A DNA stretch of 40,718 nucleotides from Oscillatoriales cyanobacterium PMM_0019 (lineage in GTDB: Bacteria > Cyanobacteriota > Cyanobacteriia > Cyanobacteriales > CASBRB01): positions 1 through 40,718 of the forward strand of contig CASBRB010000184.1 in the NCBI GenBank assembly GCA_949127975.1, in the 5' to 3' direction. The notes beneath the pieces were generated by a model. It was not told the DNA's origin. It saw only the letters and a list, made by a program, of their open reading frames with translations, and made no database searches. A program made the position numbers and the translations under genes. This document shows positions 2,413 through 22,521 of the stretch, piece after piece (position 1 is the stretch's first letter; each line of letters opens with the position of its first letter).

Positions 2413-4866
<2,454 letters not shown>

Positions 4867-15250: not shown

Positions 15251-15259
15251 TAGTTTACA

Positions 15260-15352
15260 CAGGACTTACGCACTGCCTCTACATATAGCGGTGAGTAGGG
15301 GCAATCCCCTGCCGACCGTTGCCCCTACATATGCCCAGGCGACCTAAGTCCT
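15260..15352 (+). repeat. MITE-like element copy
   Basis: caggacttacgca ... taggggcaatcccctgccgaccgttgcccctacatatgcccag...cctaagtcct. Confidence 0.8.
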
Positions 15353-15421
15353 ATTACAGCTTTTTCAGTTCAGAAAGTAGTAAGATCAAGGAAGACCCTT
15401 TCTGGTTGAGCTAGCTTTTAG

Positions 15422-16549
15422 GTGACATCTGCATTAGTTGCTCCAGGACAACCGCTTACCCCTCAACAAAAAACAGGCTTAGAGCTTGTCGCCCACCTAC
15501 CTTGGCAGGGTGGGCGTGATGTTGTATTAGCAATTGATGTGACGGAAAGTGTTGGACTCAATGATGAGGGACGCATCCGCTTACGTCAGATTGTCGAAGA
15601 TAGCCTTAACCCTGGAGATTCAGTGTACGTTGTTCCCTTTGCGTCGGATGTAGTTCTACCGGAGCAGGCATCGGATGTATATCTGGGAAAACAGATCGAA
15701 TTTCGCCGTAAAGATAAAGATAATATTGAAAAAATACTAAAAAATATTCCCTTAGCTCCTGATTTAAAGCAGCAAAACACCGATATTCAGAGAGCTGAAT
15801 TAACTATTTATCAAGGGCTGGCTCAGATAAATCAGAATCGCCTACAGGAGCATCAACCCATCAAGCAGCAGTCAGTTATTTGGGTTACAGATGCTCCTTT
15901 ATTTACTCTTTCGGGTTCGGAGTGGATTGAAACACCTGCCAATAGCCCATTTAGAGTAAAAGATTCTCCAGAAAGTCAACAGCGTCGGGCTTGGTTCGCA
16001 GCCTTGCCGATGACTAAGCGCGAACTAACCATTAACAACTACAAACTTACTGTAGTTGATATCGCCCCGACGGTGCAAGAGTTTTGTACTCCAGCACCCA
16101 GCGGTCAGGTACTATGTAAGGTGAATCCTTACCTATTTGGGCAGTTGTGGCCACCTGCGGCGATACTAGCCACAGGAGTAGCTGCGATCGGGTTTTTGCT
16201 GTGGCAGTGGATTAAACTGCAAAAGAAATGGCGGCTGATAGTAACTTTTGAAGAAAATGGAGATGAAAAAGAATGTCGCCCTTTGTCGTTTAATCAGCAG
16301 ATTGCTATTGGTGAAGCAGATTCCAGATGTATTGATGCGATCGATTCCCCTGGATCAGAAGTTAGAGCCTATTTAGCTCGTCAAGGCAATCAACTTTATC
16401 TAGTACCCAATAAATCAGCATCAGTACCAGTGGAATGGAGTGGCAAAGAAATAACTAAGCGGACTCGCTTAACAGGTACTATAATTAAACTGAATTGCCC
16501 AGACGAGAAACACCGTGACTTTTACATAGACATCAAAATTAAAAAATAG
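15422..16549 (+). CDS. vWA-domain protein with one central TM and possible degenerate FHA-like C-terminus
   Basis: DVVLAIDVTESVGLND (MIDAS-like DxTxS), QQSVIWVTDAPLF, TM LWPPAAILATGVAAIGFLLWQWI; GTG start directly preceded by an in-frame TAG. Confidence 0.8.
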   Translation: MTSALVAPGQPLTPQQKTGLELVAHLPWQGGRDVVLAIDVTESVGLNDEGRIRLRQIVEDSLNPGDSVYVVPFASDVVLPEQASDVYLGKQIEFRRKDKDNIEKILKNIPLAPDLKQQNTDIQRAELTIYQGLAQINQNRLQEHQPIKQQSVIWVTDAPLFTLSGSEWIETPANSPFRVKDSPESQQRRAWFAALPMTKRELTINNYKLTVVDIAPTVQEFCTPAPSGQVLCKVNPYLFGQLWPPAAILATGVAAIGFLLWQWIKLQKKWRLIVTFEENGDEKECRPLSFNQQIAIGEADSRCIDAIDSPGSEVRAYLARQGNQLYLVPNKSASVPVEWSGKEITKRTRLTGTIIKLNCPDEKHRDFYIDIKIKK

Positions 16550-16568
16550 TTAGCTAGGAAGGTATAGA

Positions 16569-19500
16569 ATGTACAGTCAACACTCGGCAAATGAACGACA
16601 GTTTCAAGGGATTAACCGCACTATTTGTATAGGGTTAGGGGGTACAGGTCAAAATGTACTGATGCGTATTCGCCGACTGATTGTAGACCGTTATGGTAAT
16701 TTGAATAACCTGCCAGTTGTTAGTTTTGTTCACATTGACACCGACAAAGAAGCAACACAAGCTGTTAGTTTGCGTAGTGGGAACATCTATCGAGGAGTCG
16801 ATCTCGGACTTCAAGAAGCTGAAAGAGTCAACGCTACTATGACAGCTACAGAAGTGAGTAACTTAATTCAGGGATTAGAGCAATGTCGCTCTCATCATCA
16901 TCAACCCAGTCCCTATCAACATATTGCTCAATGGTTTCCGCCACAACTTTTACGAAATATTAAAGCAATAGAACAGGGGGCAAAGGGGATTAGACCTGTA
17001 GGAAGACTCGCTTTTTTTCACAACTATCTCAAAATTAAGACGGCTATTGAAGCAGCAGAGCAGCGTACCAAGGGGCACGAGCAAGAACTCATGCAAAAGT
17101 TTGGTTTAGTTGTCGATCCTGGGCTGAATATTTTTGTAGTTGGTTCCCTTTGTGGTGGTACAGGTAGTGGAACATTTCTGGACATGGCTTACAGCCTCAG
17201 GCATGCCTACCCTGGCGTACAAATCATCGGCTATCTAGTTATTAGTCCTGAGTTATATGGTAACACGCCTAATATGTGTGCCAATACTTATGCGGCTCTG
17301 ATGGAGCTTGAATATTACTCCAGCCCAGGCACACAATTTAATGCTTGTTACGATCAACGATATTTAATAGTTGTCCAGGAAAAACGTCCTCCTTTTGATT
17401 ATACGTACTTAGTTTCTAAGGATACTGAACAGGGTAAATATTCGATAGATAAACAAAGAAAACTTTGTAATGTCATTGCCCACAAGATAGCACTAGATTT
17501 TTCTGGAGAATTAGCTCCGGCGGTGAAGGGGATGAGAGATAATTTTGCCCAACATATGCTCCAAGAAGATGACCACCCTCGCCCCAACAGCCAGAGTTAT
17601 TTAACATTTGGGTTAGCTGCTATCTATTTCCCACGCGATCGAATTTCCCAAATTACCCTAAATTATATTAGTTGTAGACTGGTAGCATTTTGGTTACAGG
17701 GAGAAGGACAAAGCCCAGATTCAGAGAAATTATTAGAGCAGTTTTTGATTGAATCTCGCTGGCACAGTGATTTAGACCGCAAGGATGGGGTGCTCCAAAA
17801 AATAGAGGCAACAACTCTAGAATCAGATAAAACTTTCAACGGCATCATGAATACTTGGAGATCCAAGTTAGAGAGTGATGTCAATGAGTGCAAAACTAAG
17901 GACGATCGCTCTAGCATTATGCGCCAACTGCAAAGGGATTTGAAAGAGCAATTTCGCAAAACTCAGTTTGGGGAAACAGAAAATACTAGAGGTATCTGGA
18001 TCACCAAAATAGAGAGAAATCAGCGCCATCTGATCGAGCAATTGCAGATGGATATCAATAGATTTTTATCTGGATTACTCACACCAAGCAACCAATACTT
18101 CTCGATTACGAATGCCCGCAACTGGTTGGATGCTATGCAAACGGAGCTGCATAAGTATCAATATAAATTAGGGGAACAAGTCAAAACATTGAATCATGCC
18201 ATAAAATTAGAGGATTTGGAAAGAAAATGGGGAGAAATAGACAGAAGTATTCAAGATATTGAAGAAGAATTTAACTGGCCACTCCTGAATAACAAAAACA
18301 GCCGCGTCCAAGAACAAGCGAGAAAGGCAATCAAGGAGACAGATACCGCTATCAGGCATAATTTCAATTTGGTAGCAGCATTAGAAGCACTGGAAATCGT
18401 TAAGCATCTGCAACAGAATGTACAAGCACTGGCAAGTCAGTTAAGTAGCGTGAATCGGGTATTAGATGACTTAAAAAGCTACTACGAGAGAAACCAAAAT
18501 AACCTCAGACAATCAAATTTTGATGAGATGAGCGGTGAGGAAATATTCGATGAGTCAGACATAGAGAGCGGCTATAACTCATTGTTGCCAGAAAATGATT
18601 TCCGCGCCCAGATGATACAAATTTCTCAGTCAATTTTAGAACCAGATGGACAAGGGCGATCGCTAGTGATTTTGTTAGACGCCAATCGCAGCAGTCCCGA
18701 ACAGCTTCAAACCGACATTAATTTGACGGTAAGCCGTTTATTTGGCTCTCGTAGTGCGGGAATGATGCAGTCTGTGATTAAGCGCTTCAACGAAAAATAC
18801 TCGGCAGCCGCCCGCCCAGTACGGTTAGCGCAAATCCTGCGGGAAGCTGCGCCTTTACTGCCATTGGATATGAGCGATCGCTATTTTCATAATAACCCTG
18901 CTAAAAAAAGCCAGCTAGTAGGCTTCAAAGATACCAATGAGCCTGAAGTCAAACAATTTCAAACCCTGTTAACACGGAATTTAGGCATTCCAGACAATGT
19001 CCTCAAGCCAACTCAAGCCGAGGATGAAATATTAATCGTGAGTGAGTATGCTGGCTTTCCACTCAGGCTGATTAACGGCTTGCAGCAATTGAGAAACCAT
19101 TATAACCGTGAAAAACATAATACTGATAATACTTTGCTGCACAACGATCGTAACATTGTATTTACAGACATTATTCCGCCAGATGTCATCATCATGCAAA
19201 AGTTACAGGATATCTTCTATCCGTGTCTTGCTTTTAACTTGATTCAACAAAACCAGAAATCCCAGGATTTGGAATTTCAGTATTTTGACGAATTGCGAGA
19301 TACCTATCATACCGCATCCCTCAGTCCAGCTTGGAATCAAGCCTTAGATCAACTGGTAAAAAATGCAGATATGATAGCAGCTTTGGGGCAATTATTGGAA
19401 GGCGTTATTACCGAAATAGAAAGTCAACCTGCACGATGGCAGGGGTATTACTTGCCCAAATTGCGACAATTTGTGGAACAGGTTGATAATTTACCAGATG

Positions 19501-19838
19501 ATGACATCAATTATCTCTACCGCTCCAGGGTAGTTGGTACTCGTGGCACCGTTGATACTCCCGCCAAAGAGGGAGTAATCAATCGCTTCCTCCAACGAAT
19601 GCAAGAGCGATTCAACACCTTACCAGTACAAAATACTGCTCCACCAGCAATTATACAAGGTCAAAAAACTATCCCTGGTGAGTTAGTAGTCGATTTTCCT
19701 GTAGAGGCTGTTGACAACAGAACCAAACGGCAAATAGAACTGGAGCAGCTCAAACAGTATTTAGACAATGGAGTTGTCACTACCGAAGTGTACGAAAAAT
19801 TATCCAGAGACATCTTAAACAAATACCCTCTGCCATAA
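16569..19838 (+). CDS. Large tubulin/FtsZ-like GTPase-domain protein with SHOCT-like C-terminus
   Basis: ICIGLGGTGQNVLMRIRRLI (nucleotide-binding loop), VVGSLCGGTGSGTFLDMAYSLR (tubulin G-box-like GGTGSGT), C-terminal ELEQLKQYLDNGVVTTEVYEKLSRDIL; GGAAGG upstream of ATG. Confidence 0.85.
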   Translation: MYSQHSANERQFQGINRTICIGLGGTGQNVLMRIRRLIVDRYGNLNNLPVVSFVHIDTDKEATQAVSLRSGNIYRGVDLGLQEAERVNATMTATEVSNLIQGLEQCRSHHHQPSPYQHIAQWFPPQLLRNIKAIEQGAKGIRPVGRLAFFHNYLKIKTAIEAAEQRTKGHEQELMQKFGLVVDPGLNIFVVGSLCGGTGSGTFLDMAYSLRHAYPGVQIIGYLVISPELYGNTPNMCANTYAALMELEYYSSPGTQFNACYDQRYLIVVQEKRPPFDYTYLVSKDTEQGKYSIDKQRKLCNVIAHKIALDFSGELAPAVKGMRDNFAQHMLQEDDHPRPNSQSYLTFGLAAIYFPRDRISQITLNYISCRLVAFWLQGEGQSPDSEKLLEQFLIESRWHSDLDRKDGVLQKIEATTLESDKTFNGIMNTWRSKLESDVNECKTKDDRSSIMRQLQRDLKEQFRKTQFGETENTRGIWITKIERNQRHLIEQLQMDINRFLSGLLTPSNQYFSITNARNWLDAMQTELHKYQYKLGEQVKTLNHAIKLEDLERKWGEIDRSIQDIEEEFNWPLLNNKNSRVQEQARKAIKETDTAIRHNFNLVAALEALEIVKHLQQNVQALASQLSSVNRVLDDLKSYYERNQNNLRQSNFDEMSGEEIFDESDIESGYNSLLPENDFRAQMIQISQSILEPDGQGRSLVILLDANRSSPEQLQTDINLTVSRLFGSRSAGMMQSVIKRFNEKYSAAARPVRLAQILREAAPLLPLDMSDRYFHNNPAKKSQLVGFKDTNEPEVKQFQTLLTRNLGIPDNVLKPTQAEDEILIVSEYAGFPLRLINGLQQLRNHYNREKHNTDNTLLHNDRNIVFTDIIPPDVIIMQKLQDIFYPCLAFNLIQQNQKSQDLEFQYFDELRDTYHTASLSPAWNQALDQLVKNADMIAALGQLLEGVITEIESQPARWQGYYLPKLRQFVEQVDNLPDDDINYLYRSRVVGTRGTVDTPAKEGVINRFLQRMQERFNTLPVQNTAPPAIIQGQKTIPGELVVDFPVEAVDNRTKRQIELEQLKQYLDNGVVTTEVYEKLSRDILNKYPLP

Positions 19839-19871
19839 ATATAGAACGTTGACGTTCATACCAGCTTGTAG

Positions 19872-19888
19872 GGTGGGCAGTGCCCACC
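19872..19888. repeat. Short palindrome GGTGGGC-AGT-GCCCACC
   Basis: 7-bp perfect arms between the tubulin-like and ZorA-like genes. Confidence 0.7.
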
Positions 19889-19933
19889 ACGCCCACGTCC
19901 TCAATTCGATTTCACAATTTCAGGGTTGTTATC

Positions 19934-21862
19934 ATGCCGCCAGTACCACCTTACTTACTTGTTTTTATCTTAGTCTTAGTTGTTTTACCAACAATAGTGA
20001 CTATTTTCTTACGCCTTGCTCTTCATAGGTATCTTCTATACCTAGAAACCCGTGCGAGCAGGCTAGTAAATCAAAGAGAGCGTGGCGAACAGCCAGAAAT
20101 CGTGAAAAAGTTAGAAAAAAGGTTTAAAGAAGCTAGTAGTAAATCAGAGCAGGTTAACACAGCAGCCTTAATAGATCAAGTTTACAGCCGAGAAAAGGTT
20201 TTATGTATTTCTTGCGAACAAATAGATTATTTATGTCGCCTGATCCCCAATTTGCTGCTAGCATTCGGCTTACTGGGTACTTTTTTCGGTATTACCATAA
20301 ATTTAGCCGCATTGAGTCAAACAATTGCTCACACTACCACCAACGATGTAAGTATTTTAGTGCAGGAATTACAAAAACCACTACAAGGTATGGGAATTGC
20401 CTTCTCCGCTAGTTTAGCTGGATTATTTTGCAGTGCAACTTTAACAATAGTTAACTTTTTATTAAATACTAACTTGCTCAAGTATCGTTTGCTTAGTTCT
20501 TTAGAGGATTATCTAGACAATATTTATCATCCAGAGGGGCAAACCCGTCTTGATAAAATAGTCCAAGGAATGGTGAACTCATTTGAAAGCTTTTTAAATA
20601 GATTTGGTCAAACTGTCCGCGAAGCAGTAGAATCTTCCCTAAGAGATAAACTTCAAGAGATTTTTGATGCCAATATTCGAGCAACTGATCTAGCTAAAGA
20701 GGTATACACCCGATTTTTAGAAGCTGCTGGTACTATAGCCAGAAGTGCTGATGAATTTCAGAAAGCAGCCGATAAATATATAGAAGCAGCTCGTTTATTC
20801 AAGGATAATGATTTTGCCCAACTTTTAGCAGAAGCTACAACAAATTTAGGTAGCACTCAAAGAAATTTTGCCGAATCAGCTTCCAGTTTAGCTGAGTCAG
20901 TTAAAGCTATGGAAATAGCACTGAATCAACTCTATAATTCTAGCGAAAAATTAGTAAGCGTAGGAGAAGAGATTAGCCGTGTCAATCAAACTTCAGTACA
21001 AGTATTAGAACTACATCAAAACAATCAGCAGTCTCTTAGTGAGATTATTCCACAGCTTCAGCTCGGTGCGCAGAGTTTCCACTTAGCAGTGACAAAGCTT
21101 GATAATCTCCAGGAACAAGTTGTAGCTAAAGCAGATAGTTTGGATGGGGTGCAAGTTGAACTAACTAATTTGGTGGCGCTTGTGAGAACTTATACAGAGG
21201 GGGTTAATCTGGAAATCCAGTCTTTGAGCAATGAACTTCAGCAATCTATTCAGCAGTCAGTGAAATTGGTAAAAGAAATCAGCAGTCTTAATCAAACCTC
21301 AATACAAGTATTAGAACTACATCAAAGCAATCAGCAGTCTCTTAGTGAGATTATTCCACAGTTACAAGAAGGAGCGCACAGCTTCCAGTCAGCAGTCGCG
21401 ATGCTGGAAAAGCTGCAAAACGAAGCTGTAGCTAAAGCAGATAGTTTGGGTGAAATACAAGCAGAGCTATCTTCTTTGATAACGAGTGTGAAAAGCTATA
21501 CAGAAGGGGTAACTTTGGGGATTCAGGCTATGGGGGATAAGTTGGTACGTGCCTTAAAACAACAGCCAGAGATTCCGCCTCCCCCACCTGGAGAAGGATA
21601 CAGAAAAATAGTTGAAGCATGCTTAAGTGGTAACTACAGTGAAGCGGCTACAAAAATTGATAAATTAGTTCAGTATATGCCGAATGATTTTCAAGTACGT
21701 TTACTAAGGGGTAACATTTATTATGAACTACAGCAATATGATATTGCCCGCGAAGAATACCAGTTTGTTTTAGAATCTGCAAATCCTCAACTAAAAGCTA
21801 ATGCTAATCAAGGGCTTATTAAAATCCAGTCTATCCAAGAAAAAAATAGCGTACAGGCTTAG
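19934..21862 (+). CDS. MotA/TolQ/ExbB-like (ZorA-like) membrane protein with long coiled coil and C-terminal TPR
   Basis: TMs LLVFILVLVVLPTIVTIFL, LIPNLLLAFGLLGTFFGITINLAAL, GMGIAFSASLAGLFCSATLTIVNFLL; coiled coil with 102-aa duplication; TPR-like C-terminus. ATG 19934 preferred over the track GTG at 19880. Confidence 0.8.
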   Translation: MPPVPPYLLVFILVLVVLPTIVTIFLRLALHRYLLYLETRASRLVNQRERGEQPEIVKKLEKRFKEASSKSEQVNTAALIDQVYSREKVLCISCEQIDYLCRLIPNLLLAFGLLGTFFGITINLAALSQTIAHTTTNDVSILVQELQKPLQGMGIAFSASLAGLFCSATLTIVNFLLNTNLLKYRLLSSLEDYLDNIYHPEGQTRLDKIVQGMVNSFESFLNRFGQTVREAVESSLRDKLQEIFDANIRATDLAKEVYTRFLEAAGTIARSADEFQKAADKYIEAARLFKDNDFAQLLAEATTNLGSTQRNFAESASSLAESVKAMEIALNQLYNSSEKLVSVGEEISRVNQTSVQVLELHQNNQQSLSEIIPQLQLGAQSFHLAVTKLDNLQEQVVAKADSLDGVQVELTNLVALVRTYTEGVNLEIQSLSNELQQSIQQSVKLVKEISSLNQTSIQVLELHQSNQQSLSEIIPQLQEGAHSFQSAVAMLEKLQNEAVAKADSLGEIQAELSSLITSVKSYTEGVTLGIQAMGDKLVRALKQQPEIPPPPPGEGYRKIVEACLSGNYSEAATKIDKLVQYMPNDFQVRLLRGNIYYELQQYDIAREEYQFVLESANPQLKANANQGLIKIQSIQEKNSVQA

Positions 21863-21870
21863 AGATAATT

Positions 21871-22521
21871 ATGCGTCATCGTTCAAGACAAACTGATTGT
21901 AATGAAGAATTAAATATTTGGCCAGCATTCACAGATTTGATGTCGAATGCCTTTATGATTATTATTTTATTTTTGTTAATCACCATTTTTCAATCTGTAG
22001 TTTCACAAAAAGGCCCAAAGGAAACAGGGGCACCACCAATTATTGTGATTAAAGATACAGGTGCTTATCAATTTGTTTCAGGGAGTGCTGAGTTACCGGA
22101 TAAATTGTATTCTTACATTTTTACAGATTTAGTCGATAAAATTGAAGAGAATGCCAAAAAGTATCAGATTGATGTTATCGAAGTGATTGGTCATACAGAT
22201 GGACAATCTAATGGGAGTAAGGTTAGCAACTTAGATGAAAAATTAGAACAAGTTGCATCTGGCGCTCTACCTGTTCGCAATCTACAAGGTGGTTCTAATG
22301 CCGATTTGGGGTTGATGCGGGCATTAGAAGTTGTCAGAGCGCTTAAATACATTCAAAAGCAACAAGGGCGTTTATCAGGGTTAGGTTTTAGAGCCTATTC
22401 TGCGGCGCAGTTGATTTCACCAGAAGGAGGGTTATCTGAAATCGATCGGCAACCCGATGCCACCCGACGACGTATTGAAATTCGCTTTACTCGTCTTGGT
22501 AAAGTTACAAATATTCAGTAA
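21871..22521 (+). CDS. MotB/ZorB/OmpA-like membrane protein
   Basis: FTDLMSNAFMIIILFLLITIF (single TM with N-terminal Asp as in MotB-type stators) and OmpA-like VIEVIGHTDGQ...DATRRRIEIRFTR. Confidence 0.85.
   Translation: MRHRSRQTDCNEELNIWPAFTDLMSNAFMIIILFLLITIFQSVVSQKGPKETGAPPIIVIKDTGAYQFVSGSAELPDKLYSYIFTDLVDKIEENAKKYQIDVIEVIGHTDGQSNGSKVSNLDEKLEQVASGALPVRNLQGGSNADLGLMRALEVVRALKYIQKQQGRLSGLGFRAYSAAQLISPEGGLSEIDRQPDATRRRIEIRFTRLGKVTNIQ

Follow-up and report, generated by a model that had tools for sequence, protein, structure and literature searches.

What could a proton-motor pair of the kind known from Zorya be doing in the same gene cassette as a tubulin-like GTPase? The question is raised by a 40,718-nucleotide stretch of the Oscillatoriales cyanobacterium PMM_0019 (contig CASBRB010000184.1), referred to here as the window. 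Four co-directional genes on its forward (+) strand encode, in order, a vWA-TM-FHA membrane protein (TM, transmembrane; 15422-16549, GTG start, 375 amino acids), a member of the Tubulin_2/FtsZl1 family (16569-19838, 1089 amino acids), a ZorA-like motor subunit (19934-21862, 642 amino acids) and a ZorB-like motor subunit (21871-22521, 216 amino acids). The genes are separated by 19, 95 and 8 nucleotides. The second gap shrinks to 41 if the ZorA-like gene begins at an alternative in-frame GTG at 19880, which would give 660 amino acids; the start at 19934 finds support in the MPPxPPYL N-terminus encoded from that position, which many relatives share. Four closely spaced genes in one direction had been recognized in an initial annotation made from the DNA letters, and its open reading frames, coordinates and gaps stand. 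We propose that the cassette specifies one envelope machine, in which a wall-anchored proton motor would work together with a membrane-held tubulin-like scaffold or load, and we regard this proposal as evenly poised between being right and being wrong.

The evidence that carries this proposal comes mainly from conservation. We sampled 245 genomes of the cyanobacterial phylum and added a one-genome-per-species scan, which together yielded 100 distinct loci with a close relative of the tubulin-like gene; outside cyanobacteria, the survey covered plasmid records only. The order vWA-TUB-ZorA-ZorB is kept in 84 of the 89 distinct cyanobacterial loci that have enough flanking DNA, which excludes a chance arrangement, and the median gaps across relatives' cassettes are 18, 78 and 56 nucleotides. 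The closest relatives in the one-genome-per-species scan belong to Aphanothece and Gloeocapsopsis (70-71% identity). No fifth gene was common to the flanks of the surveyed cassettes. Each of the 31 sampled genomes with a close tubulin also has a ZorB-like gene (E below 1e-50), as against 12 of about 209 others. For one of the 31, G125, the ZorB-like match is on a separate contig, since the contig carrying the cassette ends inside the ZorA gene. Retention also persists where linkage is lost: in genome G055 the cassette genes are far apart on one contig and yet retained, and a Geminocystis genome (L154, G246) keeps the vWA and ZorB genes on different contigs. A closely related Aphanothece metagenome-assembled genome (L086, G245) has the tubulin alone. 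The initial annotation had inferred a functional unit and named a lack of co-conservation as the finding that would overturn it; these counts reveal co-conservation instead and support the inference.

The distance matrices of the four proteins are also correlated pairwise (r 0.57-0.84). Distances follow those of RpoB for the vWA protein (r 0.88), the tubulin-like protein (0.81) and ZorB (0.84), and less closely for ZorA (0.56), all with p 0.001. Descent has therefore been mostly vertical, with many losses.

The motor subunits carry the hallmarks expected of an ion-driven pair. The ZorA-like protein consists of an N-terminal TM helix, a TM pair, a long helical cytoplasmic tail and a C-terminal TPR. 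It matches the PADLOC profile ZorA1 (5.4e-11) and the NCBIfam profile ZorA (3e-7), and it aligns to the solved ZorA structure 8vvn_C through both channel helices and then into the tail, part of the alignment score being generic coiled coil. This alignment places the TM2-TM3 proton-channel core at 20228..20449 (+). The motifs PNLL...GLxGTFxGIT and IAFxxSL of the TM pair do not vary among relatives, nor do G115-T116, T121 and S160 of the channel. Pfam MotA_ExbB (PF01618) gave no match to the window protein at E up to 1. The ZorA-like proteins of 91 relatives have a median length of 552 amino acids, and most relatives seem to lack the C-terminal TPR and to end in coiled coil. The TPR of the window protein (21626-21832, +) resembles those of many unrelated cyanobacterial proteins.

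The ZorB-like protein has a single TM helix and a periplasmic OmpA-like peptidoglycan-binding domain. It matches PADLOC ZorB1 (4.1e-7) and the solved ZorB 8vvn_B (2.8e-5), whose FSDLM aligns with its FTDLM. Within this helix, Asp22 (FTDLMSNAF; codon at 21934..21936, +) is an invariant TM residue aligned with the proton-carrying aspartate of ZorB and MotB. Across 25 relatives there is no variation at D22, GHTD, N120-L121, R150 and R199-R201, and in Zorya residues of these kinds carry ions or bind peptidoglycan (PMC11890865). The Zorya profiles and the alignments to 8vvn_B and 8vvn_C thus bear out the original call of a ZorAB/MotAB-like pair.

In the product of the second gene, a Tubulin_2 domain (PF13809; 16623..17666, +) was recognized at E=1.3e-101 and 340.9 bits, against a gathering cut-off of 27. 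A GTPase-like N-terminal part (residues 19-366) is followed by a large, mostly helical C-terminal region. The glycine-rich loops G22LGGTG27 (T1) and G196GTGSG201 (T4) are invariant in 22 relatives, and a Foldseek search with the AlphaFold2 model matched tubulins and CetZ with probability 1.00 over approximately 350-430 columns. Profile score and fold match together confirm the tubulin/FtsZ-like assignment made from the letters. A role in TubZ-like DNA segregation was considered and ruled out: the protein is a Tubulin_2 member, its partners are those of a membrane motor, and no partition genes lie alongside.

The first gene had been described as encoding a vWA domain with a TM helix. This description finds support at the level of fold, is weak at the level of sequence and missed a C-terminal FHA fold. 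In the AlphaFold2 model (pLDDT 86.8) the vWA domain spans residues 33-232 approximately and carries a MIDAS-like D39-x-T41-x-S43; Foldseek matched it to the vWA domains of BatB and CLCA1 with probability 0.96-0.99, and Pfam VWA_2 reached E=0.11, under its cut-off. D39, T41 and S43, together with Cys222 and Cys232, are invariant among relatives. A TM helix at about residues 243-266, recognized by hydrophobicity and flanking charges, leads to the C-terminal FHA-fold domain (residues 270-375 approximately; 16229..16546, +), which Foldseek matched to Ki67 and Rv0020c with probability 1.00 (target TM-score 0.69 to the Ki67 FHA). The Arg, Ser and Asn residues that bind phosphothreonine in FHA domains are not conserved in the consensus of relatives, in which IGE replaces GR and SxxH and NG are absent. 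The mean number of K+R residues rises from 0.8 before the helix to 3.7 after it (87 proteins), a distribution of charges that would place the FHA end inside the cell and hence the vWA domain outside.

Tubulin-like and ZorAB-like genes are also paired beyond the four-gene cassette. Four Deinococcus plasmids (L176, L178, L179 and L234) carry a diverged tubulin and ZorAB-like set in the order membrane protein, small TM protein, Tubulin_2, MotA/TolQ-like, OmpA-like, large protein and a further gene. Three of the four plasmids have a beta-helix annotation for this final gene, and the large protein of L176 has LRV repeats. The Deinococcus A subunit aligned with the ZorA-like protein of the window (hhalign probability 93.5, E 2.3e-7) and reached 21.1 bits against PF01618, below the gathering score of 22.9, whereas the alignment of the B subunit with the ZorB-like protein was weak (probability 57, E 1.1e-4). 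The upstream membrane protein was examined as a homologue of the vWA-FHA protein and no relation was detected (probability 0.6). In plasmid L178 an IS630 element interrupts the tubulin gene. In two cyanobacteria (G135 and G016), ZorAB genes of the window's own lineage (hmm E below 1e-83) adjoin a tubulin/actin-type operon that encodes a vWA-like DGSAS lipoprotein, a short Tubulin_2-like protein (Pfam E 1e-4) and a 1090-amino-acid protein with the actin/Hsp70 motifs DFGTS and DIGGGTSD. No relation was detected between the DGSAS-motif lipoprotein and the vWA-FHA protein. Uma2-type proteins are part of this actin-type set at the two loci, L168 (2411-17099), with ZorAB inside the operon, and L166 (672-14180), with ZorAB divergent.

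How does the cassette compare with systems already described? Makarova and Koonin (2010, PMC2875224) proposed that FtsZl1 operons, in which the partners are vWA and OmpA-like proteins, encode membrane-remodelling systems, and reported cyanobacterial FtsZl1 as a distinct clade. The link to these FtsZ-like families drawn in the initial annotation is supported: the cassette shares with FtsZl1 systems the Tubulin_2 core, an adjacent vWA membrane protein, an OmpA-domain protein, a coexisting canonical FtsZ and a patchy spread. It differs in that the OmpA-type protein is here the B subunit of a proton motor with its A subunit adjacent, an arrangement for which PMC2875224 makes no mention of MotA or TolQ. 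In addition, the vWA protein of the cassette ends in an FHA fold, and the protein kinase or P-loop GTPase that are frequent, though not universal, neighbours of FtsZl1 are missing from the cassette. A literature search, which did not extend to bioRxiv and most subscription journals, found no paper linking Tubulin_2 with a motor. We read the cassette as a form of the FtsZl1 systems, of which the vWA and OmpA neighbours were already described and the motor was not found mentioned.

Resemblance to Zorya lies in the ZorA-like TM core with its long helical tail and in the TM aspartate and peptidoglycan-binding domain of the ZorB-like protein. Membership in Zorya, however, fails on curated cut-offs and effectors: the ZorA-like protein reaches 29.7, 25.9 and 21.4 bits where the ZorA subfamily cut-offs stand at 500, 190 and 250, and PADLOC detected no ZorC/ZorD or ZorE in the cassette or among ten window neighbours. 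The surroundings are not defence-rich, and the partners are instead a tubulin-like GTPase and a vWA-FHA protein, whose occupation of the Zorya effector position remains an analogy. It is plausible that the cassette motor works like Zorya's core. Membrane vWA proteins are also encoded beside genes of 5:2-type motors in vWA-TolQ-like systems (PMC12204202), but there the vWA protein carries an SHLS motif or supplies a pore helix and the neighbours are TolQ/TolR-like; tubulin is not mentioned in that account. MotAB, TolQR, ExbBD and AglRQS belong to the same motor superfamily and share the TM aspartate and OmpA-like domain, whereas the A subunit of the window misses Pfam MotA_ExbB, has a long tail and keeps other partners.

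We favour the one-machine reading because of the 84/89 synteny, the 31/31 co-occurrence, co-retention after unlinking, correlated distances and the hallmarks of both motor and GTPase. The Deinococcus plasmid pairing and the actin-like operons of G135 and G016, which recur with ZorAB-like genes, lend it further support. Domain identities, key residues, strict synteny, co-retention and mainly vertical descent form its observed basis. On this basis, the ZorA-like and ZorB-like proteins would assemble in the inner membrane as a proton-driven rotary motor of 5:2 stoichiometry, anchored to peptidoglycan by the OmpA-like domain of the ZorB-like protein, with Asp22 as the putative proton carrier. A ZorA-like pentamer would extend its long helical tail into the cytoplasm, where the tubulin-like GTPase, which the vWA-TM-FHA protein would hold at the membrane, could be the load or output of that tail. 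Torque or a conformational switch of the motor may organize a sub-membrane tubulin-like scaffold, or the nucleotide state may gate the motor. The outcome would probably be an accessory trait in which the envelope is organized in a wall-linked manner, remodelled or surveyed; this would be distinct from canonical cell division, since true FtsZ is encoded elsewhere in the same genome. Complex formation, 5:2 stoichiometry, proton flux, GTP use, membrane tethering, force direction and biological role are the elements of this scheme that we infer. Somewhat less probable than the one-machine reading itself is its more specific form, in which a ZorAB-type motor directly drives, or is gated by, the tubulin-like GTPase and so couples ion flow with a nucleotide switch, with a sister form that gains an actin/Hsp70-like ATPase in two cyanobacteria.

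Phage defence was listed among the possible roles in the initial annotation. On this alternative the cassette would be a Zorya-like anti-phage system with the tubulin-like GTPase and vWA-FHA protein replacing the ZorC/ZorD or ZorE effectors, and we judge this unlikely. We are just as sceptical of its mechanistic version, in which the ZorB-like protein would sense wall damage on infection, the motor would turn and the tail would activate the GTPase. ZorA and ZorB profiles are indeed the top matches in the defence library, both the helical tail, which is long, and the residues that bind peptidoglycan fit the needs of Zorya (PMC11890865), and the cassette is distributed patchily and frequently disrupted. 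Moreover, one Deinococcus cassette adjoins an AAA-DUF2357 pair, and on Thermaceae plasmids Tubulin_2 genes without ZorAB adjoin BrxL and further genes of defence type. However, the frequent families in cyanobacterial flanks are ordinary (PsbO, phycobilisome and RF3), and a defence-island test with PADLOC revealed no enrichment: 140 flanking proteins from 30 loci matched 82 families, compared with 129 for 140 proteins drawn from 20 random stretches in those genomes, a crude count since a single protein may hit many models. In the window the cassette adjoins no defence gene: defence models matched none of ten neighbours except the ATPase part of a histidine kinase. The cassette itself holds no nuclease or helicase. 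A four-gene copy was not found in the plasmid records, and three of the four proteins track RpoB with r 0.81-0.88. Mostly vertical descent, ordinary flanks and lack of plasmid copies argue against a mobile defence system in cyanobacteria; with no defence enrichment besides, a role in phage defence is not favoured, and the early suggestion is left unsupported.

The same invariant residues that suggest a working motor bear on a second alternative, a passive membrane-remodelling scaffold of FtsZl1 type in which the ZorAB-like pair is a torque-free wall anchor. Invariant wall-binding residues suit this idea, as do the FtsZl1 operons proposed as membrane remodellers with vWA and OmpA-like partners (PMC2875224), but Asp22, G115-T116, T121 and S160 are equally invariant and a mere anchor would not need them, so that we rate it a shade below defence. 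A surface-motility or gliding motor like AglRQS, moving on a tubulin-like track and acting on the wall or outer membrane, appears improbable. The motor superfamily is shared with AglRS and MotAB (PMC12505986) and Nostoc, Kamptonema and Trichodesmium are among the many filamentous, gliding genera that carry the genes; the cassette is nevertheless present in unicellular or colonial Microcystis, Crocosphaera, Chroococcus and Prochloron, gliding genes are not among the frequent flanking families, and no outer-membrane partner is encoded in the cassette. Finally, each half occurs without the other in some loci, as it would if a vWA/tubulin pair and a generic ZorAB-like pair were independent modules lying side by side. 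The 84/89 ordered loci, the 31/31 co-occurrence, co-retention after unlinking and the independent pairing in Deinococcus make this very improbable.

Several observations weigh against one envelope machine. A number of cassettes are broken, which implies that the system is dispensable. In some cases a ZorAB-like pair is encoded with no tubulin at all, and ZorAB is missing from the neighbourhood of many other cyanobacterial Tubulin_2 proteins, these paralogues adjoining periplasmic binding proteins or a vWA protein. The model of the tubulin-like protein is moderate (pLDDT 76.5, pTM 0.57) with target TM-scores near 0.4, and filament formation is doubtful because T6-H7 elements, which belong to the T6-H7-T7 set that protofilaments require, were reported as not identifiable in the FtsZl1 family (PMC2875224). 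The topology of the vWA protein is also in conflict, since the charges put the vWA domain outside and yet no signal peptide was found in 100 homologues read back to the upstream stop.

Other arrangements of these families were recorded in the survey. Two ZorAB-like pairs (L080 and L081) have an A subunit without the long tail; in L081 a PhoH gene lies upstream of the pair and a protein matching RNase T and a STAND-like ATPase downstream. On Thermaceae plasmids (L174, 7404-15363; L180, 7375-16467; L181, 7306-15383), genes for vWA, Tubulin_2, a hypothetical protein and BrxL stand in a row, without ZorAB and with helicase or exonuclease genes nearby. In Azospirillum (L175, 5999-19047), a Tubulin_2 protein is found amid OmpA-family, caspase-family and DUF4384 proteins. 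In the window itself, a two-component pair and a small protein are encoded upstream of the cassette, and an M48 peptidase and further ordinary genes follow downstream on the opposite strand. Promoter and terminator scans performed no better than shuffles. The interval between the small protein and the vWA gene (15258-15360) resembles, by eye, a dispersed short repeat of cyanobacteria. Further upstream, gyrB (2428-4866, +) contains an in-frame intein, whose Intein_splicing domain occupies residues 449-604 of the 812-residue product.

If the four proteins act together, the cassette would represent a bacterial ion-driven rotary motor wired to a protein of the tubulin family. Many carriers, including Nostoc, Anabaena and relatives of Microcystis, are culturable, so deletion and localization tests are practical. 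The widespread and uncharacterized Tubulin_2/FtsZl1 family would gain a testable partner and a power source. If true, this would point to the ZorAB module as a general transducer of force or signal, one that defence systems have borrowed or shared.

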